Of a DNA stretch of 64,000 nucleotides, positions 4,340 through 64,000 are shown in pieces (within the stretch, counting starts at the first letter, position 1; each line of letters opens with the position of its first letter). Below the pieces are notes generated by a model. It was not told where the DNA came from. It did not search any database and worked only from the letters and a program-made list of their open reading frames with translations. A program made the translations under genes and the position numbers. The stretch covers positions 6,548,501 to 6,612,500 of the forward strand of contig OY727103.1 of NCBI GenBank assembly GCA_963402885.1, read 5' to 3'. This DNA is from Antedon bifida (Eukaryota > Echinodermata > Crinoidea > Comatulida > Antedonidae).

Positions 4340-4640
4340 GCCACCCAGAAACATAAGCCCACCCAGGGACATAAGCCTACCCAAGGACATAAGCCCATGC
4401 TGGGACAAAAGCCTACCCAGGGACATAAACCTACCTAGAGACATAAGCCCACACAAGGAAAGCCTAACCAGGGACATAAGCCTACCCAGGGACATAAGCC
4501 TACCCAGGGACATAAGCCCACCCAGGGACATAAGACCACCCAGAGACATAAGACCACCCAGGGACTTATACCCACCCAGGGACATAAGCCTACCCAGGGA
4601 CATAAGGAACCCAGGGACATAAGCCTACCCAGGGATACAT
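4340..4640. repeat. 18-bp minisatellite (CCCACCCAGGGACATAAG)
   Basis: About 16 imperfect copies of an 18-bp unit. Because 18 is a multiple of 3 it gives open frames (MSLGG-type) that are artefacts. Confidence 0.92.
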
Positions 4641-6413: not shown

Positions 6414-6706
6414 TTAGATGTTTTGAGAAAAAATTCGCAAGTAGTTCTCGGGTGGGAATCGAACCCACGACCTCCAGATCACTAGCCTGGCGTTCATACC
6501 TCTAGACCACTGAGCTTGCGCTGATGGCTAGTGATTAGATTCGAGCCCAAGTAAGCAGCGGGTACTGCACCAACAGGATTGTAATTGTAGTACTTGCGAA
6601 TATTTTCGCAAGTATTCTCAAATGTACTTAGTATAAAGTACAAATTACGTCAGAGTAGGGCAAAACATCTAATTACTCAACTCCCTGACGCAAAACTACA
6701 ATTACA
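6414..6706 (-). mobile_element. tRNA-headed SINE or foldback element with 12-bp target duplications
   Basis: The element is flanked by identical AAAAATAGAAAA copies at 6402-6413 and 6707-6718. It splits a MITE whose intact relative is at 40484-40870, so the insertion limits are clear. It contains a tRNA-like sequence on the minus strand and short inverted copies of TTAGATGTTTTG near its ends (6414 and about 6662-6674). Long duplications suggest target-primed insertion, as for SINEs; the inverted ends are unusual for a SINE. Confidence 0.6.
6445..6524 (-). pseudogene. tRNA-like sequence, probably Thr(AGT)-type, degenerate
   Basis: On the minus strand the D arm reads GCTCAGTGGTCTAGAGGTA, the anticodon arm CCAGG-CTAGTGA-TCTGG (anticodon AGT), and the T arm GTGGG-TTCGATT-CCCAC is perfect. 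The 5' side of the acceptor stem does not pair with CCGAGAA, so a functional tRNA is unlikely. It is the head of the element that contains it. Confidence 0.55.
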
Positions 6707-12959: not shown

Positions 12960-13885
12960 TTCTCATGTTTCTTCAAGTCACTTTGTCAGACTCAAACACA
13001 CTTGTTCTTCATCTACCCTTCATCCCATCTACCATTCCAATCAAGGACAAGTTGCCAATGCTGTCCATTCCGATGTTTACTCGTGTCTCTTCAAGTCACT
13101 TTGTCGGGCTCAAACACCCTTCTTCTTCCTCTACCCCTCATCACATAATCATTCTACTTAAGGACAAGTTTTCAATGCTGTCCATTCCGATGTTTACTCG
13201 TGTCTCTTCAAGTCACTTTGTCGGGCTCAAACACCCTTCTTCTTCCTCTACCCCTCATCACATAATCATTCTACTTAAGGACAAGTTTCCAATGCTGTCC
13301 ATTCCGATGTTTACTCGTGTCTCTTCAAGTCACTTTTTCTGGCTCAAACACCCTTCTTCTTCCCCTACTCATTATCCCATCTATCTTTCCAATCAATTGG
13401 ACAAGTCCTCAATGCTGTCCTTTCCGATGTTTACTCGTGTTTCTTCAAGTCACTTTGTCGGGCTCAAACACCCTTCTTCTTCCTCTACCCCTCATCACAT
13501 AATCATTCTACTTAAGGACAAGTTTTCAATGCTGTCCATTCCGATGTTTACTCGTGTTTCTTCAAGTCACTTTGTCGGGCTCAAACACCCTTCTTCTTCC
13601 TCTACCCCTCATCACATAATCATTCTACTTAAGGACAAGTTGCCAATGCTGTCCATTCCGATGTTTACTCGTGTCTCTTCAAGTCACTTTGTCGGGCTCA
13701 AACACCCTTCTTCTTCCTCTACCCCTCATCACATAATCATTCCACTTAAGGACAAGTTTTCAATGCTGTCCATTCTGATGTTTACTCGTGTCTCTTAAAG
13801 TCACTTTGTCAGACTCAAACACCCTTCTTCTTCTTCCTCTACCCCTCATCCCATCTACCATTCCAATCAAGGACAAGTTCTCAAT
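12960..13885 (+). repeat. 117-bp tandem array open in one frame
   Basis: About eight copies of a unit starting at CTTCAAGTCACTTTGTCGGG. The unit is 117 bp (one variant copy is 120), so a plus-strand frame of 359 codons runs through it with a 39-residue repeat containing MFTRVSSSHFVGLKHPSSSS. No signal peptide or splice context supports it as a gene. Confidence 0.85.
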
Positions 13886-15070: not shown

Positions 15071-15074
15071 TCAT

Positions 15075-15330
15075 GGAAGAGTCTATCGGCATTGATGAGG
15101 CTATTGGCATGAAAGAGGCTATCAACATGTAAGAGGTTATCGGCATGGATGGAGCTATCGGCATGGATGGAGCTATCGGCATGGATAGGCTATCGACATG
15201 GACGAGTATATCGGCATGGATGAAGCTATCGGCATGAATGAGGCTTTCGCCATGTATAAGGATTTTGGCATGAATGAGGATATCGGCATGGAGAAGCTAT
15301 CGGCATGGATGAAGCTATCGGCACGGTCAA
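15075..15330. repeat. 18-bp minisatellite (GCTATCGGCATGGATGGA)
   Basis: About 14 diverged 18-bp units. Period matches the arrays at 4.3, 10.9 and 32 kb but the sequence is unrelated. Confidence 0.9.
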
Positions 15331-19330: not shown

Positions 19331-19336
19331 CGAATT

Positions 19337-19458
19337 GACAACAAAATGTGATGTGTCCATATATGGACATGATGATGTCATATCACTATCATATTTGGGA
19401 ATATTACTACTTTATTTGGGCACATCACATTTTGATGTCACATGAAGTTTGATAGTGT
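19337..19458. mobile_element. Palindromic MITE, CACTATCAAAC family, left end truncated
   Basis: Right end CAAAGTTTGATAGTG-type sequence (GAAGTTTGATAGTGT) and inverted ATGTGATGTG / CACATCACAT inside. A complete relative is at 63685-63829. Confidence 0.6.
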
Positions 19459-20239
19459 AGACAAAGCTTAGGATGAACTCCATAACCAGAGAATAGGATA
19501 CACTTCTTTAACTATTATGACTTGGTTGTTTAAGAGGGGTTTTCCTTAATTAGACAGATAATAATTTAATTTTCTATTTTGTCAAGGATTTTACTTTATG
19601 ACTTGATATCGATAACTTTATTAGGATAGAATAGTTATTGATATTTTTGAACGAGACAAGCACCAGTATTTCCACTTGCTTTGTTGATGAAATAAAGTTA
19701 TCTTATCAAAATTTAACCATGATTTAATTAAGTTCATAATTATATTATTATAATTAAATTACATTACATAATATTACATAATTTGACTTTGAAAAAAACA
19801 CAACATAGATTATGACAGATGAAACCAAATGCAATGAAATATACATATCATCATCTTTGTGGTTTTAACGTCAACATTTGTTTCCTTCTACTGGGTAAAG
19901 TTCAAGGAACTGATCTCTAATTAAACATTTCTACAGAATTCTGTCTTCAAAAAAATTAAAATTGGAAATAATATAGTTATCATGTACGGCACATTGTTTC
20001 AAATCATAATTATCAAATCAAAGATTATTATAAGTGTTTTTAAATGAATTATAGTAATTGCCAATCAATTTTTTGGAGAACCACTTTCCTGGGGTTGCTC
20101 GATTATATTCCATATCATTACACACATAGAGTATCCTTGACATTTGATGTGCCATTCGGTATTAGTGCTACTGAACAGAAAAGATATATCTAATTGATAA
20201 TTATAGGTTCGCTATGAGCAAGGTAATCTAACAACAGGA

Positions 20240-21011: not shown

Positions 21012-24000
21012 TCGTTTCTTTTGCTTCCTCTTCTTCCATCTCTTCATCACTACTTTCAAAGAATCTGAACTTTGAACTCTCATGAGCAAACGGATTTACT
21101 TTTGGTAACGCTTGACTTAACATTACATCATTCTTTTTAATGCTCGTCTCCTCTTCGTCGCTATCACCGAAGAACCGAAATGTAGACTCATTTTGTAAAA
21201 CCTTATCTGAATTATATATACAAATTAACATTAAAAATAAATTAAGTACAGTACAGTCTTGTCTAGCATTTGAAAATATGTTTGGCCAGACTGTTCTTTA
21301 ATTTGTTATACAATATTTTTTTTAAATAAAATATTTTAGATTATTCTAATGTAGATGTTTATAAAAGACAGGCACTACAATTGAAAAATCTTGATAAATG
21401 ATCAAACAGATTAGAGATTAAATTAAATGACAGTTACTGCAGTAACTGCATTAGAATAATGTTTACACAGTCCCTATCATCAAGTAAAAGCAGCGAATTA
21501 CCTTCAAGGTTATCTTTACTGCTCTCAAGGTCACTTATCTGATCATTTTTAAGCGCTTTTGTAAGATCACCACTGACTTCAAAATATTTTTCTTTTGACA
21601 CTTCTGGCAGAGTTGTCTCTTGGACGTCTACCTTTTTCTTCTTTGCAGACTTTTTATCAATGTCCACTGAAGGTCTACAAAAATTTACATTAAAGACATT
21701 TAATAACAAATAAAACAAATTTAAGTGACATGATGAAGAGAAATGGTTCTCGAAACATGTCGCTTAAATTTAAAACTGTTTGTATATTATTTAAATGTAA
21801 CTGAATGCACTGTTTTAGATTGCCCGTTTTGTATTGCAAAGAAATAAAATATTAATCTTATACATCTATAGCAAAGTATATCATTAAAAATCAACTATTT
21901 ATTTATATTGATGATTTGTATTGTTGATATGGACTTCTTCCGAAAAAAAAATTGAATTGAATAAAAATACTTACGTTGGTTTTTTACTTTTGACTTCATA
22001 ACAGGTGTGTTCATCTCTTGTTGGATCATACCTAATCATCTTGCCTCTGAACATAAAAAAAAATACATCCAAAATACAAAACCTATATTCAAGCATTTTA
22101 GATAGCGAAATGATCAACAGAATCAAGAACAGGATACTGCGCTGACACTTGCCAAGATAGGAACCCGTAACAGTCCATTGATCTTATGTCTGGCTGCGAC
22201 AAAAACCAACAGTACTGTACTATGTACATATTCCCTATGGTGCAGTGTTTGTTAAGAGGCATGGAACTGATCGTGTCGCAGCCACAGATAAACTCTTTGA
22301 TCTCCGGAGTTCAGCCATTAGATTGCTTTGACAGAACCAACAATGGCATCTAAGAACTGCAAAAAGCTTGGCTCCCAATTAGATGTGTGATGTGCCAAAA
22401 TATTGTAGTGATATTTCCAAATATGGTAGTGATATGACATCAAATTTGATAGTGTAGCTTTTATTTTAATGTTAAACCAACCTTCTCCTGTACGAGAATA
22501 TGATTGATCAGTATTTCTGGGTTTTTTTTCTGTATTTTCAGTTCTTTACTGCATATACTTATTGTTTGATAGTGCAGACAGGTAGTTTAATCAATCACCA
22601 TCAAGTTGCTTGTGATTAACTCACTTGCATTGTGCCTACATCATTGCGTTGAGTCCAAATGGGAACCAAGCTTAAAGGTTGATATTTTGAGTTTCCAAAT
22701 ATATGTTTATTCTTCGAAACAAAAGAACACAATTTCATCGTGATGATGGGAGATTGCTCAAAATTTTGGGAAAATGTCGCAATAAATATCCATAGTTTGC
22801 GAAAGTTTGCAAATATTAACAAATACTCACAGAAAACCCAGTTTATCTGTTTGCACATCTTTTTGCTTGGAAAGCATAGCTTTAGTTCCCACAATGCCTT
22901 GTAAGATGCTGTAAGACTTCTCTTTCTCCGTTCTCAGATCAACCTCGCTGTCAACATTCTTGTGATCTACTTCAGTGGATGAATTCAGATTTTCTGTGGA
23001 TGATTTCAGATTTTCTTCTTCGCCATCTTAATAAAAACAAATTAAATATAATGTACATAAATGGTTTCTTTATTACAATTTACCAATTTCATTAAATTTA
23101 ACAAGTTCTGTTCATAATTAAACAAAAAGAGAAAAAACATTCTTACTATAGACTATCAATTAATATGATAAAATATTAATGAAAAAAAAACATTAAAAAC
23201 TTTATTAAGACCTTATATTTTTCGGATGATCTTTAAGAAAGATAAAGTTTGTGATTTACTGTTCTTTAAAGTAAATTTTAAACATTTAAAAATAATCTTA
23301 TAACGAAAATTAAGGGCACGTGAACATAGGCTTTACATTATTCATTTTTAATTTAAGTGTATCAACTCTACAAACTACAACATGCTTTTAAGGGTCTTTC
23401 ACACCTGTTCCAGCGACGGCAAATACAATCGAATGTCAATGTTTCATTTTTACGCTGCTATTTACATATCGATTGGCGCGTGGAGCATCATTGACTTTCG
23501 ATTCACCGTACCGGAACATGTGTGAAAGACTCTTTACCACTGTCATCCTCTTCAAGGAATCGCTTATCCATGGAAAATCTCTCATCGCCGCCTGCCTGCT
23601 GTTGAAGTTTGCGCAACTAGAAAACAAATACAAAGATAAAAATAATAAAAATTACTCGCCATTAAATAAAATCGCAAAAAAAGTTTCTGTACAATCATAT
23701 GTATCACATGTTTTTAGATGATTTTATGTATTTTTTAATAGGTATTAACCCCTGTTATTACTTAATTGCCAGTTGTGCTTGAGGATGTTAAAATAAAACT
23801 AAAGTTTGTTTTAAAAAAAACATATTTCTTTTCGATTTAGTTAAAATATAACATACTGTACCTTTTCACCGGAAGTTTGTAAAAAAAAACATTATATTTC
23901 TTTTCGATTTAGTTACAATATAACATACCTTTTCACCGGATTTTCCTTCAAATTGCGACTTATTATGAAAACGGGCATCGTCATCATCTTCATCACTCTC

Positions 24001-27000: not shown

Positions 27001-30000
27001 CAAAGACCTCTTACTTGTTACTGGTGAAACAGAACTGTTATTTTTTATTGCTAAAGTGTTTGGTTGAATTGCAGATAAATCTTGATCCTTGGAACAGTCT
27101 TCATTAGAACATAAAATTGATTTAATTTCTTTAGTATTTTCTTCAGTTTTTTTAATATTTTCTCCTACTTTTTGACATTTTTTACCACTTTCTTTCATCA
27201 ATGTTTTACCAGATATTAGGTTCTTTACTTCTGTACCCTGTGGTTCTAAAACAATAAAGTTTATTTCCTGATTTGTTAATGGATTTACTGCCGACTTGTA
27301 ATAAAACTTTCCTGATGAATCTAAATTCACCTCATCCAGAAGATCGTCCACAGAAACAGGATCTCTTGTGGCAAAGATGTCATAACCAGACTCTCCTGCC
27401 TCAGACTTTGTCGTAATTGCTTTCTTCTTCTGTAATTTGCTTAATTTAAAATCATTTTTCGTATCAGCATCAGTTGATTCCGAAGATGAGGATTCGGTTC
27501 CATTACTGTTGCTAATTGATATATCTTCTGGTGTAAACAAAGCATTAGGAAAATCTTTGCCTTTCTGTTTTTCACTATCAACTCTTGATGAAACCGCTTT
27601 CAGTTCAGTAGTTCTTTCAGTAATGTTTTCATTTTTAGAAACATTTTTCTGTGACGTTGAGGTTAATTTTTCTCTTTGCCTTTTCTTTGATGTAGAGCTA
27701 AGTTTAGATTTCTGTATTAATTTAGGAAGCAACAAAACATTGTCACCATCTTCTTCTTCATCATCTGATGAATTGTAAACCTTACAAGTAACTTTCTGTT
27801 GAAGATTATGTGCCGTCAAATTCTTTGAATCAAATTTTTCTGAGACAACTTCAAAGTCATCATCATTTTTCTCATCTTCATACTGATAAGAAATTGCATT
27901 TCCTTTTGTCAGATTTGGTACAAATTTAGAAACATCATCCTCAAATTCATCCTCATACACAGATTGACTTAGTTTCCTTTTTTTCTTTTTGATTGGGGTG
28001 CTATAAGCTCCAATTCTTTTTTGGTACTGCACTTTATCTTCGGCAGCCTCCATTTCCCATGTCAGAGAGCATCCATCGTTTCCACTGTCATTCTCATCTT
28101 TAATTCTTTTGAGAGAATGAGAGTATTTGCTTGGGTCTATTTTATTCACTTTTCTTTTCGTTTTGCTACGAATGTACACAATAGGAACGACTCTGCCAAA
28201 TTTAGTTACAGTCCAATTCTGTAAAAGCAAAAAAAAATTAATTGTTAACAATTTGTTCATATTTGTACACTGAATTGTAACACAAAGTGAAAAAAATGTG
28301 TGTATAACATCTATAGTACAAAAGAAGTATAATTAATTATACAGTAATTGTCATATTATCCACATGACAGGAGAGCCTTGCACTGAATATAAAAATCTCT
28401 CAACCTATATACATATTAGATTCTTTCATGCAAGACTGTGGGTCCAGTCATGGAGGTATGTTAATGTTACGCACATTCGACTCTGACTTTCTGATTAAAA
28501 CAACAATGTTGCTGGGCTACGATGACAACAAAGAGAGGATGTGCGTACACTATACTCTCAATGATGTTAACAGTTTCACCCCAGAAAACAGATCTAATTA
28601 GTGCGTTTAATAATTCTAATTCTTAACTTATTACAAATTCCATCAAAATCAAGAACTTTAATCTAAGTCCACCTTTTCTCCAGTGATCTCTGTTCCAGGA
28701 ACAGCATTTCTGATATCGAAATCCTTCACACCAGCTTTTGAAAAACTTTCTTGTAACCTCTCTTTCGCGCTTTTGGTTTTCTTGGATCTTTTTACAAGAG
28801 TTTCTTTATGTTTTGCCTCTTCCTTTTCTCTTTTCAGCCTGAAACAAAAAAATAATTTATAAAATATAATATCCAACTGAAAATTATTCTTCCTCAATTT
28901 GTCACATTGAGTGGCTGGGAAGTTAAAACAGGCGTCGCAAACCATATATAGCCAATAGGTTGGCATACACTTGACCACAGTTCTGGTTGTAAGTATTTCT
29001 GACTTAAAACAGGAGGTCCAGTGCACAGATCTGGCTTTGTCGAGTCTATAAATGTACAGCTTTACCACGTTGAAACACCGGTTCTTGTCAGATCACCGAA
29101 GTTAAGCGACGTTGGGCCTGGTTAGAGCTTGGATGGGAAACCATCTGGGAATATCAATCGGGTGCTGTATATGGAGCTGGGGTCTCGTTAGACATTTGAA
29201 ATCAGCATTGCTGACTCTTATGGCAACCCCTGCATCTAGTATCTGCCTTTCCTCTGGTGAAGGTGGGCACTGGACGAGAGAAGAACTTGATCAATGTTAG
29301 GATCAATCAAGGTACTTTAAACAGTCCTGGCTTTGTTTGTATCAAACTTGTTAGTGGCGGTAATTATCGTTGTTGGCTTCGATTGAATAAAATAAAATAA
29401 AACATCCATCTTCCAAATAAGTCCATAATGAAAGTAAGTCTGATTAATAAAAGTTAGTTCATATAATATTATAAATCATTGTTTAGTCCTATTGTCCCCA
29501 TGACAGGAGAGCCTCACACTGAATAGTAGAATCAAATACTCATATTATGTATATAGATTCTTTCGCATGAGACTGTGAGTCCAGTCATGGAGGTATGCTA
29601 ATTTTACGCACATTCGACTCTGACTTTCTGATTAAAACAACAATGTTGCTGGGCTATGATGTCAGCAAAGAGACAACGTGTGTACACAGCGCCTTCAACG
29701 ATGAAAACATTTTTGCCCCAGAAAACAGATCTAATTAGTGCGTTTAATAACAATTTAAACTGACACTTGACAGGGATCATCTTAAAAGATCTTTACCTTT
29801 GTTGAAAACTTTCCTTAGCAGTTTGTATTGTCAAACAATGTCCCTTCCATTTACTTCCATTGTAAGTGTTAAGACCTTTATAAATGAAAAAAGAATATTA
29901 TTTTTATGATGGAAATATCTTGCTTGTCATTTATTATATATTATTTTATTTATTATATTTATTTTATCATTTTTTTTAAATGTATTTTTTGTGTTGCATT

Positions 30001-31689: not shown

Positions 31690-32360
31690 ATTGTATTCAT
31701 AACATGAACTAATTCACAAACATTACTTACTCAAAACATGAACTTACTCAAAAACATGAACTTACTCAAAAACAAGAACTTACTCAAATATATGAACTAA
31801 TTCACAAACATGAATTAATTCATTCATAACAATTAACATGATTGTATTCATAACATGAACTAATTCACAAACATTACTTACTCAAAACATGAACTTACTC
31901 AAAAACATGAACTTACTCAAAAACAAGAACTTACTCAAATATATGAACTAATTCACAAACATGAACTAATTCACAAACATGAGCTTATTCAAAAACATGA
32001 ACTTATTCAAAAACATGAACTTACTCAAAAACGTGAACTCATTCACAAACGTGAACTTATTCACAAACGTGCACGCATTCACAAACGTGAACTCATTCAC
32101 AAACGTAAACTCACTCACAAACATGAACTCACTCACAAACATGAACTTATTCACAAACATGAACTTATTCACAAACATGAACTTATTCACAAACATGAAC
32201 TTATTCTCAAACATGAACTTATTCACAAACATGAACTTATTCACAAACATCAACTAATTCACAAACATCAACTTATTCACAAACATCAATTCAGAACTAC
32301 ATGAACTAAAGTAATTCACAAACATGAACTAATTAAAAAACAAGAACTTATTCACAAACA
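31690..32360. repeat. 18-bp minisatellite (ACATGAACTTATTCACAA) plus a larger duplication
   Basis: About 31690-31830 is repeated as 31840-31960; then roughly 20 units of 18 bp run to 32360. Long frames occur on both strands for lack of stops; neither looks like a gene. The array lies just upstream of the NOL8 start codon. Confidence 0.9.
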
Positions 32361-32572
32361 TGAGCTTTAATTTTGGTCGCGATAAATTCAGCTTCCTGCA
32401 TTTTGTATGACAGGCCAATAGACTTTTGATATCAATAGTTGTATGGGGCACAATATACATTTTCGTTGTTTATGAGTTTAAGCGTATTCTAATTTGTTGT
32501 TATTTTACAGGTCTTGGAGATGTACATGTGTGTTTTTAGGGTTTTAAATTTGTAAACATTGTTATCTGATTA

Positions 32573-33825: not shown

Positions 33826-34119
33826 TCTGATTATAAATAAATTACGCATATTTATGTTCACATTAATTAAAAGTAATTAATATATATTTTATAGACTCAT
33901 ATCAACTACAACTAATGTCATGATAAATAGTGTATAAATAGTGTTCTTTTATTTATTACATTAGTCATTATTGCGATCAAATTAAAACGTCGTTGCTTAT
34001 TATTTTAATACACGACCAATTTTATCTCTCACCAAATAGATAGGCTACTACTACTAGGCTAGGAGCTAGACTAACTTAACTAGTTACCTCCCCTGCTGGC
34101 ATAACATTGGCCTCTAGCC

Positions 34120-34873
34120 GGCGCTAGTTCCGTTTCGCACCTGTCATTTATTTCGACTCAAAATTTGTTAAGAAACTTTATCGTGATTACCACACCTTAG
34201 AATTAGGCTTCAAAAATACTTTTACGAAGGAGATCACACAAAAAATGACAAATAAATGCTTTTACATTGATGAATTTACAGACGTGTTTCGCGCACATCG
34301 GTTCGTCAATTTCGCATACGCCATGTTCAATGTTGTTGTTCCTATGGAGCGCAACAAAAATGTTACTGTTGATGCTGTACATGGTTTTCGTTAACTTTTA
34401 AGAATGAAAATCGACAAGTTCATCATCATATTACATGTACTGTAGTTTTTATACCTCAATGATCTAAATAATATTCCTCTTAGTCTTAGGCCTAGGCTAG
34501 GTGGTAGTGATGCTGATTTAGGCCTAGGGTTTTGTTGCATTGACATTGACAAAATATATTAAAATTGAACGTAATTTTCACCAATAAATGCATTAAATAT
34601 ACGCATTATATTGAGTTTTTAGCCCTCTATTATGATTGCTCTTTTGGCGCTCCATAGACAACATTGGACATGGCGTATGCGAAATTGACGAAACGATGTG
34701 CAAGAAACACGTCTGTAAATTCATCAATTTAAAGCATTTATTTGTTACTTTTTGTGTGATCTCCTTCATAAAAGTATTTTTGAGGCCCAATTCTAAGGTG
34801 TGGTACTCACGATAAAGTTATTTAACAAATTTTGAGTCAAAATAAATGACAGGTGCGAAACGGAACTAGCGCC
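34120..34873. mobile_element. 754-bp foldback element with about 235-bp inverted arms
   Basis: The left arm (GGCGCTAGTTCCGTTTCGCA onward) is complementary to the right arm for about 235 bp with scattered mismatches, leaving a spacer near 290 bp. CTCTAGCC is duplicated exactly at 34112-34119 and 34874-34881. It resembles a hAT-type or foldback MITE. No coding capacity. Confidence 0.85.
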
Positions 34874-34942
34874 CTCTAGCCTAGATAGACCTAGGCCTAG
34901 TGGAGTGCTATTATAATACTATAATAGCTAGGCCATAGATAG

Positions 34943-37900
34943 GGGATCCAGTCAAGTCGCCCCATCGCAAAGTCGCCCCATACAAAGTCGCCCCATCGCA
35001 AAGTCGCCCCGGCACAGTCGCCCCATCGCAAAGTCGCCCCATTGCAAAGTCGACCCATCGCAAATTCGCCCCATCGCAAAGTCGCCCCATCGCAAAGTCG
35101 CCCATGGTTTTATTTCGGTATGACTATGAAGCGCCGCCGCTAGTAGTAGTAGTACGCTGTTTTAATCATATCGGTTATTGCGTTTGATATCGATCGCGTT
35201 GTTACTTTGATCGCGCTAAATGTCGTATACATTATAATGTTTATCCTATTATATACATAATTTGTGTTTTAATTTTTATTTTACAGGTTTTAATGGAGTG
35301 ATGTGCTTTTTAAAAATCATTAATAAAATAATCCTTGTTTGAAAGTTCTAAAAAGATTTTCCCTGATTTATAGTTTCGAAAATTTAATTTAATATGATTT
35401 TAAAATTACAGGTAATTACCAGAGCCACAATTACGAATCCTTCTTCAACCTACGCGTGGATACCAGCTCATTTTTTAGGATAATATAATAAATGTATAAA
35501 TGTGTAGTAGGCCTTCGTATACTATTAGTTAAAACAATAACAGCGTTGTGTAAGACAATGAGTGTTATAGGCTACTTATTGATCATTTTGCATTTATTGA
35601 CAAGTTATGTGTCTATTGTTATTTAATTTTATTATGACTTTTCAAAATGAAGAAATAAAAAATACTAAAAAACAAAGGATTTCATCGCCGATATGATCGT
35701 TTTTACATGCAGGTATTTTAGCAAAATTAAAACGCTACATTTTGACCATGGAAAAACCATCGTACAGTATCGTGTGCGTGTTTTTTAAAAAGGGGAATCC
35801 CCGACGGTCAGCAAAAAGACGTAGCAGCTGTGAGGAAACAGATACCAGAAGGCGCAGCTCCGATTGGTTTCAGATTGCGAGTCGCCTTTTATTCAACAGC
35901 ACAATGATCATTTTACTGAAGAAATTCTTTTCAACCCTTTTGGTTGTAGAACATTCTAATTATCATGCCTAATAAATATCCTCATATCGGGTGATTATAA
36001 TCAATGTTAATTGTAATACTAATAGTAAACTGAATGTTTATAAATAAATTGTTTTACGTAATTTGTTGCATATAAAATAAGACACAGTACAGACGTAGCC
36101 TACGTTCCCTATAAAATATTTCACATTTAAATAATTATGTACTGTTAAATGACATTATGCCGAATAATACTATAATCTTAAACTATGTTTACAAATTGTC
36201 ATTTTTTAAGGCACACATCTTTCTCATCATAAACCTGTAAAATAAAAACAAATCAATTATTAATATAGCCCTAATAATAATAATAAATATTCATCGACCA
36301 AAGTAAAAATAATCTAGATCGTAACATCATTTTATCGTGACCAAAATTAAACGCGACCGATTTCAAACGCGACTGATATCGTAAAACTCCGGCGGGGTTT
36401 CCCCATCTTCAGATGGTGCGTTGTAGTGCGACAACGGCGGAGTAATTACGGGGGTTTCCCTCTGGTGAGGTAGCACGTTAGTGCGACCGCGGAGTGATTA
36501 GTCGGGGGCTTCCTCTCTGATGATGGGGGAGCGTGCCGATCGTGTGACCTGAGACTACATGGCGGGGCTTCCCATTTTATGCCTACACGTTCCGTGTTAT
36601 TTTGTGTATCATTGCGACATTTAACCGATTCACCACGATAAGCGCTTAAAGCGCTCATGAGGTTAAAATTCAAGGTCATTGTAAACAAATTATCAACAAA
36701 AAAAAAAGTAAATTGAATTTACATGCGCAGTTTGCGTGACAACAAATTATACAAAATACTCACAACTTTTTTTTTTTAAATATGCTTCTAAATATATAAA
36801 AACAATTGTTGAAGTTAGTTTGAAAATAAAATTCGAAAATATAACCGTTTTTCGAATCACGCTGTTCGAATGAATCTAGGCCTAAACATACAACATAAAA
36901 TCGTCTAAAATCCATCTTTATTTGTAATAATCACTATTTTGAAGCATGTATACAATAAATGTATAATAAATAAAGATTATGTATCAGTTACAGTGTCTAA
37001 ATCGTCATATTTCCATGTAAAAATGTGATTTTTCTACCGGAGAAAAGTCGTGACCATGTCCTCACGAGGGCCGCGCCATATTGTTTACCTTTGAATGTAA
37101 TATGAACCCTGACATGTCAGATGCATTATGGGCATGAAATATTTGTTCAAACTCTGCGCAAAGGTCAGTTTATTGAAGCATAACTTTTGACAAACATTTT
37201 GATACCAAACTTGTTTTTCGACGCATTTTCGTCTAATTTTCTGCAAGCTACACATCTAAAATAGCGGACTAAGCTCCCGAGGGATGCCGGTGCGCGTGAG
37301 AATCGCGAATTCCAAGTCGCTTTCGGGATGTTATTTTTAACATTCTCGGTGAACAAACAGCGCCGACGACGCTCTCGGGGCGGCTCCCGATAGGCCTAGG
37401 CCCCATATGGTCAACCTCGGATGAGTCGGTCTACTAATTTCTTTATAATTTCGAAACCGGTCATTCATAATGGTCAAGTTTGGTCTTATTTTGAAGAGAA
37501 GAAATAGGTTCTGATGAAGAGATGAGTTTTATTATGAAATATTTAATATTTTTTGTGCATTTGGTAGTCAAAGATAAATTACAAATTTTTAATAATTTTC
37601 CTAAAATATTTCTAAAATTTGCATAATCTATACTCCGCAAAAATAAGTTGTAACACAAATTTGATAACATATTTGGAAATAAAATGTCCTTTCCATTATT
37701 TTTCTTTTTTAATTTTTTTAATGTCTGTGTTTAGAAAAAAAGTTAGGGTTAATTATGTGACATATGCTTTTTGGGTCCCCGGGGAGCAAAATAAACTTGG
37801 GGGTCAATGGGTTAATACGCACTTGTAAACTATTTTAACGTTTTGGGGCGACTTTGCGATGGGGCGACTTTACGTTGGGGCGACTTTGCGATGGGGCGAC

Positions 37901-37990
37901 TTTGCGATGGGCGACTTTGTTTTGGGGCGACTTTGCGATGGGGCGACTGTGTAAGGGGCGACTTTGCGATGGGGCGACTTGACTAGCATC
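34943..37990. mobile_element. 3-kb foldback-like element with minisatellite termini
   Basis: The left end (34951-35105) is a tandem array of GTCGCCCCATCGCAAA (16 bp) and the right end (37845-37983) is the same array inverted. The outermost bases also match (GGATCCAGTCAAGTCGCCCC and its near complement). CATAGATAG is duplicated at 34934-34942 and 37991-37999. Drosophila Foldback elements have tandem-repeat inverted ends and 9-bp duplications. The 2.7-kb interior has no recognised transposase; about 36380-36560 holds repeated GGCGGGG-TTCCC blocks. Confidence 0.75.
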
Positions 37991-38019
37991 CATAGATAGA
38001 GGCCTACTATATATTACCT

Positions 38020-45300: not shown

Positions 45301-48300
45301 GGGACTTCATTAATCAGCGTATAAACTGGTACTTCTCCAACCCAGATGTGAGCTCCGTCGCCAATCTGCATTCCAAGTCCTAACCAGTGCTCAGATCCAT
45401 TGACCACCGCGTCTGTATCGTCTAGGACAACTTCAACTTCTAACACTAAGATGTTATTGGTAGCATCTGGGTCTTTCACTTCAATAAATCCGTCGAACTG
45501 TGTCACCGACCAGTCTTTAAGGATGCCGAAATCATCATCGCTAGCAATGTACTGCGTCTGAGGAGCGTAGTAGCAGAACTCTGTCGAATACGTACAGGAT
45601 AAGGAGTCACTGACATACGAAACCGACACTTTGTTGATACTCCACTGCTCGCTTGTCTTGTTAGTCGTAAAGTTGTATGGTAGTGTGACTTCAATTGTAG
45701 GATCAGCGGTACCTTTTGGAAACTCAACAATAAGGTTCATATGCACCTTTTGACCAACGTTAACATAAACTTTACCATCTGCAGACTGCTCAGTGATGTT
45801 CATCACGAAATGCGGTAGTTTACTGAAAACTGCGTCGGTAGTTCCCTCTGCCGTGACTAAACCGGCGTCATTGATCTCAGCATTAATGGTTACACGTAAA
45901 ATAGTTCCAGGTTTCACATTGGCTATAAATGATTTCGAAAAAAAATACGTTGAAAAAACTTTTCAAAAATAAGTAGTTTAAAAAAAAAATTAGAAAATTA
46001 ATGCAATAAGGGCAAGTTTAAATAAAACTGATCGATTATTTCGTGGCGTTAGCAACAATCTATATTAATGCTACTAAACTGGTCGCGTAAGTTTACGTAT
46101 CTCATCCGAAACCGCTGAATGATACGTGTTCGCATTTGGCACACTAATGGGCAAAAAAGAACAGGAAGGAATACAATTCGTGTATAACAAAATCAATGGC
46201 CGTAAATAGTTCCGAAATTTATTCTTGACAGTTTGTTTTTCTTTTTTTAATAATTTTTCAGAGTAACTTTCATCCATGCGCTTTTATTATACTTACTCAT
46301 CCCATGCGAATTAGTATATAGCCACATATTAAGGCAGAAAAAGAACATGGTTACTGCTAGTGATACGGTTATATCTGCACTTAAATGGTGGCGACACCAA
46401 TCTGTTTGAGTTTTGAGTAGAGTGTCAACATTTATTGTGGTTTATTTAAGTAAAAAAAAACGATTTCAGTAATACCATTAACAGTAGAATTGATGGTCCC
46501 TTCAAATTCAATGTCAGATGAAAAGTAATCATTATTACTAAAAGACAAAGTAATGTCTGATGCGGAGACTCGGATGACCGTGAAGTCGCTCTGAAAAATA
46601 CAATAAATCCGTAGCAACGTCTGATAGAAAATCTTACTTAAAAACAAAACACAATAGATCGGTCAAATCAAGAAGAAACACAGCAATAGGTAAATATCTT
46701 AAGCGGTAATGTAAATAGAATCTCTGAGATTAAAGTCGGATGTTCTGCTTCATTTTTTCCGCACGCCCAAGAGAAAATATTGTTTGACATACCATTACAT
46801 TAAGTTATATTTAATTATTTCACTGCTAAAATCACACGTCACACTTATTTTTGTTATGATCACAGCATTACTCAAAATTAACCAATACCGTATATTAGGA
46901 AAATATAAAAAAGAACCATACCGTCATGGTTGAGTCGGTGTCTCCGTTTCCTGTTAAAGTCCATATAAAAGGATCTGCAGACAGGTCGAACTGAAAAAGA
47001 TGTTTACTATAATTACCAGCCGATTAAAGATGATGACTGTATATATATTTTCACAGTATCATAGGAATAGTTGGTAATACAACATCACATGTGTTTCACA
47101 TGTTTCTCCTGGTCATATCATAATCAAATATTCCTCTGATACTTGGAAACTATATCTCGAAGATACAGCACTAAGAATCGGGTAATAATTACACCCAACC
47201 GGTATTTAGTACTATATACATTATGTTCCGCGTGTGTTATTTCTTGGATAAACTAACGTATACGTATAGGCCTATGTATCCATGTTACGGTGGCCTATAA
47301 GTGTCACGGCAACTTTCAAAAAATATCACGGCAACTTTCAAAAAAAGCCACGGCAATTTGAAAAAAGCCACGGCAATTTGAAAAAAGCCACGGCAAATTA
47401 AAAATAAAACATCACGGCAAATTAAAAATAAAACATCGCGGCAATTTAACAAAAATACCACGGCAACTTAAAAATAAAACACCACGGCAAATTAGTATTG
47501 AAACACCACGGCAAATTAGTAATGAAACACCACGGCAAATTACAGAATGCCACGGCGGAAGTGAGTTACCACGGCGGAAGTGAAACCTTTAGAATCTTCG
47601 ATTTTTTCTGAGGTAAGTAATTATTTGTGCATTGAAGTAAATATTATTATATTAATTTATTTAACTGCAGCATTTACGTGTTTATTGCACTAGGCCTAGC
47701 TATGCCCACTACTAGCCTAAGGCCTAAGCCTTAGGCCTACAGTAGTAGCTAGGTCTACTGTAAAAAAAACTTGTTATATAAAAAACAGATTACTGTAAAT
47801 ATATTAAAACATTGTAGAATGTTATAGGGCCTAGGCCTACCTTGTAATAAGGCCTATGGTCTAGCCCGCTAGAAAGTTCAAGAAGAGTGCAATAAACACG
47901 TAAACTGCTGCAGTTAAATAAATAAATATAATATTTACATCAATGCACAAATAATTACTTACCTCAGAAAAAATCGAAGATTCCAAAGGTTTCACTTCCG
48001 CCGTGGTAACTCACTTCCGCCGTGGCATTCTGTAATTTGCCGTGGTGTTCCATTATTAATTTGCCGTGGTGTTTCAATACTAATTTGCCGTGGTGTTTCA
48101 TTTTTAAGTTGCCGTGGTATTTTTGTTAAATTGCCGCGATGTTTTATTTTTAATTTGCCGTGATGTTTTATTTTTAATTTGCCGTGGCTTTTTTCAAATT
48201 GCCGTGGCTTTTTTCAAATTGCCGTGGCTTTTTTCAAATTGCCGTGGCTTTTTTCAAATTGCCGTGGCTTTTTTTGAAAAAATTGCCGTGATATTTTTTG

Positions 48301-51300
48301 AAAGTTGCCGTGACACTTATAGGCCACCGTACCATGTCGACACACGACACATGAATTCGTAGCTTGTTTCATTAGGCCAAATTCATTTTACGTCCGTCGG
48401 TAGTACAGAGTACAGACATGTGATCCGTTGTTCTCAGTAGGCTTATATGGAACGCCTCCTCTGCCTTCAGTTCACATTTATCATGCAGTACACACCAATC
48501 GTCATGCAGTACACACCAATCGTACTACTACACCGCACGTGCTTTACGTCCTATAGATTCCAAGATTTATTTAATAGTTTTTCCAGCCATTTTAGTCATA
48601 AAGCACGTGAATGTGAACTGAAGGCAGAGGAGGCGTTGTTGCTTTAATTAACATTTTTTTCTCTTGTTAATAGTTTATGTTTATGATAACTCATAACCTA
48701 CCAGTGTCACTGATGAAATATGATATAGAAATGTATTTTCAACAATTAAATCTCAAAGCTATAGTTAACGTGTAAAATTCAATCCATACAAAATGCACAG
48801 AAAATCCGGCTCACGCGCGGCTAACGTCACACTACCCGCACACATTGTGACGTATGCAAATTTCACCCATTATATGCGACTACGGAGTTTTTCCCATTCT
48901 ACTTATTCCATAACTCATTATACCATTCATATGCATTCTCAACTGAGAATCATCGACGCACAGGTCAACAAAATAATGTGCAAGTTTTGGAACACTAATA
49001 ATCGTTATTTCCGATGCTGTATGCAAGTATTGCATGAATACAGTACCACCAAAAAACAACGAAATGGAAACCATTACGGCCAAATAAACACCCTATAGCC
49101 GCCGACTTAAATTAAGAATAACCAAATATATATATATATAGGCCTATGCCTAGACATTTGATGAAATATAAATTATTGGCATGGTCAGAAACACTGTGTA
49201 TACTATGTGTGTATCTTTTTAGTTAATTACCTCCATATTCTCAGCTGTAAGGGTGACTTTAAAGCCTGTTCCTAATGTCAATCCAGTAGTGTTCACCAAG
49301 AGGTCCGTCATCACTTCATCTCCAATTCCGTAATAGGTCGAATCTTCTACGGTTGCGCTCGCATCCATAATGGGAACTGAAAGTATACGTTGCCGGTATT
49401 AATATACAATTAGATAATAATAAGAATTATGCAAATAATTTATCTTTATTCGTTGAAAAATTGACTACACTGTATATAACGAGGCATAATTGACCAATAA
49501 AATTGCAGGTGTATTATAAATTTATCTATACGATGGTCTGCTATTAGATTATTTCAATTATTTGTAATCAATTACATTTTATAGCTTTTTTTGATAGTTA
49601 AATACCTAATCTAAAAGATGATATTGATTAATTTTGTTTGCATAATTATTTCGTTGTGTCCAACCTAATAGTTTGTTGGCAATAATGTGTAAATACAGTT
49701 GTTTGAATCTAAATCATATTGTTTTAAACAATTATTCATTATCAATTTAAAGCTTGATTCCCATTAGAAAAATACATCCTCGCGTTTTCTTTTATTTGTT
49801 GGCAGAAACGGGGAAGATCCGGTAAATTTATTCACAATCGCCTCTATTTTGGGTTTATTATTGAAACGCGAATCTGCGCGCAATGCATTCCGGTATTTAA
49901 AGCTAGCTGCTTAAATTATTATAACCGACTTCTTTTTCAGATTTCTACCCGTTTAAAGACAACAAAAATGATCGCGCAATATAGGTAAGGCCTATTTAGT
50001 CTGTGATTTTAAAATAAACCATATATATAGGGAATGCGTCTTTTATCAAAATGTACTTGATGGAACCCTTGTTCGCCAAAAATTAAACAACTTTCGCCCC
50101 ATAATATTATGATAAGGTAAACATATCTTATTTCTATCAGGTCAAAGTTTAATATGTTACTCTCCAATCCTTTACGCGATATTTCTTTTCGTTGGGGACC
50201 CCTCGTGAAACGTCTCAAAATAAACATGAATATTCATTAGTCATATCCATAAGGCTGTGGTGTCCTTTTCCACTTACCAACTTCTTTTCTTGCATTATAT
50301 TATTTATGTTCATTATCAGTTGTATACTTATTATGCTACTTTGTATTTTGCTTTATTATTTGTGGAAATAAATATTATTATTATTATAAGGTGTGACGTA
50401 AGAATTGAGCTAACTACAATTCGTTAATGCAAACGATTTCTGTCGAGCCGTCTGTGTAGTCGAGTGGATAAGACTATGGACTTTACATGTCGATGTATGG
50501 GGTTCGACTCCCATGAGCTACTTCTTTTACTTTATCGTGAGAGAGAGATTATTTAGAGGGTTAGGTTTAGTTATATTTAAGAAGTACTTCGGCTATCTTT
50601 CACATGGGATCCCAACTTATGCTTATGAATCACAACACGAAAATATTTCATCGACTTAAAATTATTTCGGGAACTGAACATCGCGTCCAATTTCGTCTTA
50701 CCTTGTTTTGTTCCAAAGAGTGTTTTTACTAGCACATTTGACTTAATTATGAATGTAGGTACTTAAAAAAGGTAAATTAAAAAGGAGCTTGTTGACCACA
50801 AATATACTTTACTATTATACTAGGCCTATACTGAAATAGAAATATAAAAGCAACGCTAATGCAATGTGTGCCATTTGCATCTTTAACTACAATTTGAGTT
50901 AGCAATTTCATTTGAATATTAAAATAGAATATTTACTTGTTAAAATATATAATCCGTATGCGTTATTAAGTCGACTATCGCTACTTTCCTTTGATGATAC
51001 TCCAGTTGTTCTATGCACTCGATATATACCACCCGATGTCCAGTACAGATAGCTTCCATAAATATCTATCCCCCTTGGGCGATTCAGCACAGTTGTAATC
51101 GTTCTTCTGTTAGTTCCGTTAAGGTTAGCTTCCTCAATTAACCTACTGCTGTAATCATACCAATACATCTTTCCATCTTGAGAATAATGAAAAACGAAAA
51201 TGAGAGAGAGAGAGAGACGTATACGATTGAATACTGTACTTGAATACGCCTATTAAGTTTTAACAAGTTGAGACTCGATCTCGGTACCACCGAGCCATAC

Positions 51301-63600: not shown

Positions 63601-63684
63601 ACAAACAGAACTGCATATTGATTGCCAGGAAAATCGATATATCGGTGACGTCATAAAAGCTTATTATAGTCATAAGCTCTATCA

Positions 63685-63829
63685 ACACTATCAAACTAGT
63701 TTGACAACAAATTGTGATGTGCCCAAATGATTATAGTAGTGATAATCTCAATCATTATAGTGATATGAGATTATCATGTCTATATTTGGGCACATCACCT
63801 TTTTTTTGTCACATAAAGTTTGATAGTGT
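63685..63829. mobile_element. Palindromic MITE, CACTATCAAAC family, complete copy
   Basis: Ends ACACTATCAAACT and AGTTTGATAGTGT, with inner GTGATGTGCCCAAAT and ATTTGGGCACATCAC also inverted. Almost the whole element can fold back. Relatives at 19337-19458 and 22387-22459. Confidence 0.75.
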
Positions 63830-64000
63830 AGGGCGGATATATTAAATAACACGCCCTCTGTCGCTCTCTCTGCATTTTGCCAAGCAATACTTTTTATAAC
63901 GTTAGTTTACATAAACATCTACAGCTTCATGTTTTATAGCCATGTCAGGTTTTTGTTAAAGAACAACATATGAACGCGCATGTATGTTTATTATATATGT

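Follow-up and report, generated by a model that had tools for sequence, protein, structure and literature searches.

The question raised by this locus is whether a 3-kb stretch bounded by inverted arrays of a 16-bp repeat is a mobile element, and if so of which kind. The window, i.e. the whole stretch of DNA that was analysed, comprises 64 kb (C16:6548501-6612500) of a 315.6 Mb genome in 27 contigs. A preliminary description had proposed a DNA transposon of foldback-like type in which no transposase could be recognised. We retain this transposon reading because the dispersed copies of the element were found to have fixed ends and different flanking target site duplications (TSDs). The probability that the window element is a copy of a non-autonomous foldback-type DNA transposon is put at about 0.85.

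Ends, borders and target site duplication

As the preliminary description had stated, the inverted ends consist of tandem 16-bp units. The left array (34956..35103, plus strand) contains 10 units of GTCGCCCCATCGCAAA, the last one partial, with unit lengths of 14-16 bp, and the right array (37845..37979, minus strand) contains nine inverted units, the innermost one partial. Positions 34950-35010 and 37924-37984 were 97 % complementary over 61 bp. When the 64 kb were searched for the unit (≤4 mismatches), 15 matches were obtained, 14 of them inside the two arrays, and with five single-base shuffles 0-3 matches were obtained. A search of viral contigs with the GTCGCCCCATCGCAAA unit returned 0 matches.

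Units 1-3 match between the left and right arrays in order and length, and therefore the two arrays are probably not independent expansions. Unit 2 is a 15-bp variant at both ends, but its letters differ. Among the 17 full units of the window, changes were fewer in the first half of the unit (3 over 8 positions) than in the second half (16 over 8 positions; binomial 0.002, with units that are not independent of one another). A total of 454 units of 18 kinds was counted among the family copies, of which 436 start with GTCGCCC and 398 with GTCGCCCC; the motif search required TCG and CC, which favours units with an intact core.

Outside the arrays, short terminal motifs common to the copies were observed, GGGATCCAGTCAA on the left (34943..34955, plus strand) and GGATGCTAGTCA, when read inward, on the right (37980..37991, minus strand). 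The termini GGGATCCAGTCAAG... and GGATGCTAGTCAAG... were exact in 19 copies including that of the window, and the two fixed end motifs are unlike each other (GGGATCC and GGATGC). The outermost bases of the window element, at first given as matching, are similar but not identical (GGGATCCAGTC versus GGATGCTAGTC).

By the termini common to the family, the window element extends over 34943-37991, which corresponds to C16:6583443-6586491, and its right border is 37991 instead of 37990. The 8-bp ATAGATAG is duplicated directly outside these borders (34935..34942 and 37992..37999, both plus strand). A 9-bp TSD had been reported before. The letters concerned, CATAGATAG, are indeed present at both flanks and have exactly two plus-strand sites in the 64-kb window, one per flank, but they do not constitute a 9-bp TSD, as the duplication is 8 bp long and the ninth base is the terminal C of the element. 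The letters of the two flanks agree over 10 bp (CCATAGATAG). For a 9-bp match, the chance was 0.15 % when two places were taken at random with a slack of 10 bp, and 1.1 % among the local flanks of the window element. The two C's before the right-flank duplication are assigned to the element itself, since the ...GCATCC right terminus is present in 18 further copies.

When flanks were compared in the 19 copies that have canonical termini on both sides, an exact 8-bp TSD was observed directly outside the termini in 14 copies. These represent 13 independent sites, since the flanks of L016 and L017 are identical. Two further copies (L009 and L029) shared 7 of the 8 bases, giving 16 of 19 copies at ≥7/8 bases, and the expectation that the borders of copies would fall at TSDs was thus confirmed for most of them. 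The TSD was 10 bp long in one copy (L011), no TSD was seen at L027 and L030, and a 9-bp TSD was found in none of the 19. The duplicated sequences differ from site to site. As a control, left flanks were paired with the right flanks of other copies, and exact 8-bp matches were obtained in 2 of 340 pairings, which we ascribe to L016/L017, a duplicated pair of loci with identical flanks.

An extension of the inverted repeat past the duplication was also considered and was judged unlikely. Of 100 placements in the adjoining TAGGCCTA-rich stretch, 60 reached the flank score of 18 obtained beyond the duplication, yet over the whole window only 104 of 3000 placements did so. The inverted repeat probably stops at the duplication.

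A nested repeat and the copies of the family

The stretch had been described as one 3-kb element. It was found that 36625..37811 (plus strand) is a separate, unrelated dispersed repeat of ~1.19 kb, which is flanked by TTAA and has the ends CCGATTCACC... and ...GGTCAATGGG. The host interior consists of 35104..36624 (plus strand), in which no coding capacity was found and which has the left TTAA (36621-36624) at its end, and of 37812..37844 (plus strand), which includes the right TTAA (37812-37815) and the rest of the interior. Among the best candidates of the genome search, 36621-37815 matched a separate set of loci with 91-95 % identity, and at these other loci the repeat is ~1.2 kb long. Thirteen of the 15 inner-repeat loci listed were fetched. 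TTAA was present at both ends in seven of them and ATAA at both ends in one (L042), while in the remaining five one end was altered or the alignment ended early.

The insert was missing from the host site in 19 of 19 readable copies. Twenty-one entries were tested, the two unread ones being the partial copy of the window and L018, whose sequence was taken in the reverse orientation. The empty site reads GACATTTTACGCAC in 18 copies and has a few extra bases in the other (L015a). Uninserted copies carry TTTTAC, not TTAA, at this site, and thus the lineage of the window copy differed at the target. The nested repeat represents ~39 % of the 3-kb stretch and the element proper measures ~1.86 kb without it, so that a TTAA-flanked insertion makes a 1.86-kb copy look 3 kb long.

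Relatives are numerous in the genome, with at least 215 matches, listed as pieces with the best candidates scored, and copy numbers are therefore lower bounds. Other copies with different flanks had been predicted and do exist, as 24 further loci bearing parts of the element were fetched and read. Seven of these (L014, L018, L023, L024, L028, L031 and L032) are without one or both canonical ends. The other two-ended copies are 1.82-2.13 kb long, with L030 at 2.66 kb. Identity was calculated from an alignment of 20 rows with gaps ignored, in which the window copy was represented by its left part only and from which L017, L030 and four irregular loci were left out. Four copies forming a subfamily were ~100 % alike and the remaining fifteen 97-100 % alike; identity between the two subfamilies was 95-96 %, and the window copy showed 96-97 % to each. 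Because the copies are 97-100 % identical within subfamilies, the family must have moved recently.

Unit number differs among copies and between both ends of one copy. Array length shifts by whole units between copies, through insertions of 16 or 32 bp around positions 104 and 133 of the consensus. The outer unit types hold the same order in the 8 copies displayed. Deletions other than of units were also observed (~155 bp in L009-L012, ~168 bp in the window copy and 269 bp in L029). L015 contains two family copies that point in opposite directions and are separated by ~37 bp; a distinct 8-bp TSD flanks each of them. The near-identical copies, the exact 8-bp TSDs and the whole-unit changes offer a natural series in which to ask whether movement increases with the number of end repeats; apart from this array series, it is an ordinary transposon family.

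Two readings that compete with this one can be weighed on the data above. A single 3-kb foldback-like element with a 9-bp TSD would account for the CATAGATAG letters at both flanks, but it was rejected as very improbable, as no copy has the 9-bp duplication and 36625-37811 is missing at the site in all 19 readable copies. It is still less credible that no transposon exists here and that a minisatellite was duplicated in inverted form, or that a satellite occurs twice in opposite orientation by chance. The window does contain many tandem repeats (69 rows, part of them overlapping), but a process of this kind is refuted by the comparison of copies, which showed termini fixed outside the arrays, a conserved interior and dispersed copies with a site-specific 8-bp TSD.

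Coding capacity and MULE loci

Outside the arrays, no open frame exceeded 91 aa in the window copy or 82 aa in L019. When 20 interior frames were compared with Pfam, only matches below the cut-off were obtained. Of the first ten frames, all from the window copy, six lay wholly and three partly within the nested repeat, and the second ten, which were taken from the host interior (eight in the window and two in L019), gave one match, again below the cut-off. Nothing was found by Rfam on the interior up to an E-value of 1. The interior was accordingly rejected as a captured gene or an RNA gene.

A total of 33 PF10551 matches was found in this genome, and 30 MULE loci were read with ~1.5 kb per side. 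Within this distance, neither a GTCGCCCCATCGCAAA array nor the termini of the element (exact motifs) were present at any of the 30 loci; a single GTCGCCC occurred at seven. Neither a longer, transposase-bearing copy nor an autonomous partner of the family was found among the loci read. Six of the MULE loci form one MULE family, with blastn pieces of >500 bp outside arrays that are 91-100 % alike. The array unit of this family is of the CAACTACCCC type, [AT]CAA[CT]TACCCC, and is other than the unit of the window element. Two loci of the family have inverted CAACTACCCC-type arrays on either side, L048 with 12 and 4 hits and L054 with 9 and 3 hits. L049 has an array on one side (8 hits), and none was seen at L047, L050 and L051 within the stretch read. 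None of the 24 other MULE loci had such an array, L062 showing a single hit.

The MULE domain at L048 is a 106-aa frame (59.8 bits). An 8-bp direct repeat, TGCTTTGG, was found near both array borders of this locus, but it is only suggestive, because about three exact 8-mers are expected by chance (calculated by hand) and three were found in the zones searched. Minisatellite-ended MULEs probably exist in this genome. Arrays next to MULE genes are less telling than they look, however, since inverted arrays occur commonly here, with two pairs in the 64 kb of the window, and no array was seen at three loci of the six-locus family within the stretch read. Several of the other MULE loci also showed tandem repeats that lacked an inverted partner. 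At L071, L073, L074 and L075, open frames of 600-704 aa were present. An 18-bp repeat at these four loci was considered as an end repeat; this was rejected for L073, where the repeat lies in frame within an open frame of ≥690 aa that has a PF10551 match.

Affinities, mechanism and neighbouring repeats

Inverted ends of short tandem repeats, variable unit number and dispersed, TSD-flanked copies were all observed, and these are the features by which foldback elements are recognised. Drosophila Foldback (FB) elements have inverted ends of short tandem repeats, variable in length, and a 9-bp TSD. The window element resembles them in its inverted tandem-repeat ends but has an 8-bp TSD, and the likeness to FB that had been drawn from a 9-bp TSD could not be maintained with 0 of 19 copies showing that length. 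The TU elements of sea urchins are foldbacks with short tandem units in their outer inverted ends and an 8-bp TSD, and on both points they resemble the window element. The TAGGCCTA-rich spacer is reminiscent of echinoderms, and if the host is one, TU elements would be its natural comparison. Sea urchin foldback elements are also among those cited in the Tetris paper (PMC4079207).

Of the published elements, Muta1 and Tm1 were most like the window element, and both are grouped with the Phantom MULEs. Muta1 is a MULE of Aedes aegypti that is termed a type 2 Foldback element (PMC5225508). As described there, its ends of 145 bp consist of a 10-bp terminal motif and nine 12-bp repeats that are spaced 3-4 bp apart, its TSD is 8 or 9 bp, and its putative non-autonomous derivatives, of which there are more than 300, vary in unit number. 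The period of 15-16 bp, the short terminal motif and the possible 8-bp TSD are shared with the window element, the units being compared by description only. In contrast, Muta1 encodes a 504-aa transposase within 3198 bp (PMC5225508), and no enzyme was found here. Tm1, a Mutator/Foldback family of root-knot nematodes, is described as having unlike short terminal motifs outside inverted arrays, tandem units (13-15 bp) in variable number and non-coding members, as in the present family; it differs in its TSD of mostly 9 bp (8-10), in its unit and in having a transposase-bearing member (PMC3169594). In Rehavkus, which is MULE-related, a minisatellite is likewise tied to the ends, but its descriptions give a 9-bp TSD, a PHD-finger transposase and, for Rehavkus-1_TC, a unit of 164 bp (PMC6446971, PMC10218199); the TSD here is 8 bp.

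The shape of foldback elements is easily recognised, and their enzyme is hard to assign. We consider it likely, but not proven, that the enzyme moving the window element is a MULE of the Phantom/Muta type, with this reserve because none of the 30 MULE loci carries its unit as an array. An 8-bp TSD is compatible with hAT, P, Merlin and KDZ elements as well. An enzyme from outside the MULEs (hAT, P/Galileo-like, Merlin or KDZ) is thus a serious alternative, though the less probable one. In its favour, the TSD is 8 bp long and not 9 bp, the most frequent length in Tm1 and Rehavkus, foldback ends occur in more than one superfamily, the foldback-like ends described for Galileo of the P superfamily (PMC3573991) being an example, and the absence of the unit as an array from the MULE loci read points the same way. 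On the other hand, Muta1 is a MULE with an 8- or 9-bp TSD and almost the same end structure, this genome has MULE genes between inverted minisatellites, and the 8 bp seen here (10 bp in one copy) lies within the 8-10 bp given for MULE TSDs (PMC5225508). As far as searched, the element represents a new family of a known kind. The letters of its unit were absent from the open-access literature searched and keyword searches returned no such family, Repbase lying outside this comparison.

Following a model drawn from the accounts in PMC5225508, PMC3169594 and PMC3573991, the element would move by cut and paste. A transposase encoded elsewhere in the genome would bind the repeated unit at many places per end, with the GTCGCCCC core of the unit as its likely contact, and would then pair the ends, cut at the GG termini and insert the element into 8-bp staggered cuts. 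Extra units may serve as extra binding sites and could grow or shrink in number by slippage or unequal exchange. A more speculative and rather doubtful idea is that several minisatellite-ended transposon lineages occur here, each with its own unit (GTCGCCCCATCGCAAA, CAACTACCCC-type and CACGGCAA), and that the ordered and conserved unit types of both ends form a spaced binding code for one transposase. If this were true, unit and enzyme would diverge jointly, and the families would thereby be kept separate.

Another structure of foldback-like form, different from the window element, was located at 47281-48336. It has arms of ~380 bp, 98 % complementary over 307 bp, with 20-24-bp CACGGCAA units, terminal GGTGGCCTATAAGTGTCACGG and CCATG at both borders. 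A plain inverted-repeat element (34114-34879) with the ends GGCGCTAGTTCCG lies ~55 bp to the left of the main element, and CTCTAGCC was seen by eye at both of its borders. A short palindromic repeat occurs, as copies or parts, at 19335-19473, 22386-22442 and 63670-63831, the 63.7-kb copy having ends like CTACACTATCAAACTT. The inverted pair at 19.4 and 22.4 kb was considered as a second minisatellite-ended element, which is unlikely as its left end is the palindromic repeat with the 63.7-kb copy; its right end matches that copy only over 17 bp.

Long tandem arrays are present at 12962-13885, 31701-32367, 4341-4635 and 15072-15323, three with a period of 18 bp and one of 117 bp. A 5S rRNA match (29052-29173, 73.4 bits, plus strand) overlaps a minus-strand open frame, and a tRNA match of 36.3 bits lies on the minus strand at 6447-6514. 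The protein frames of the window have an animal-like look, and an LDL-receptor class B repeat was found among them above the cut-off.
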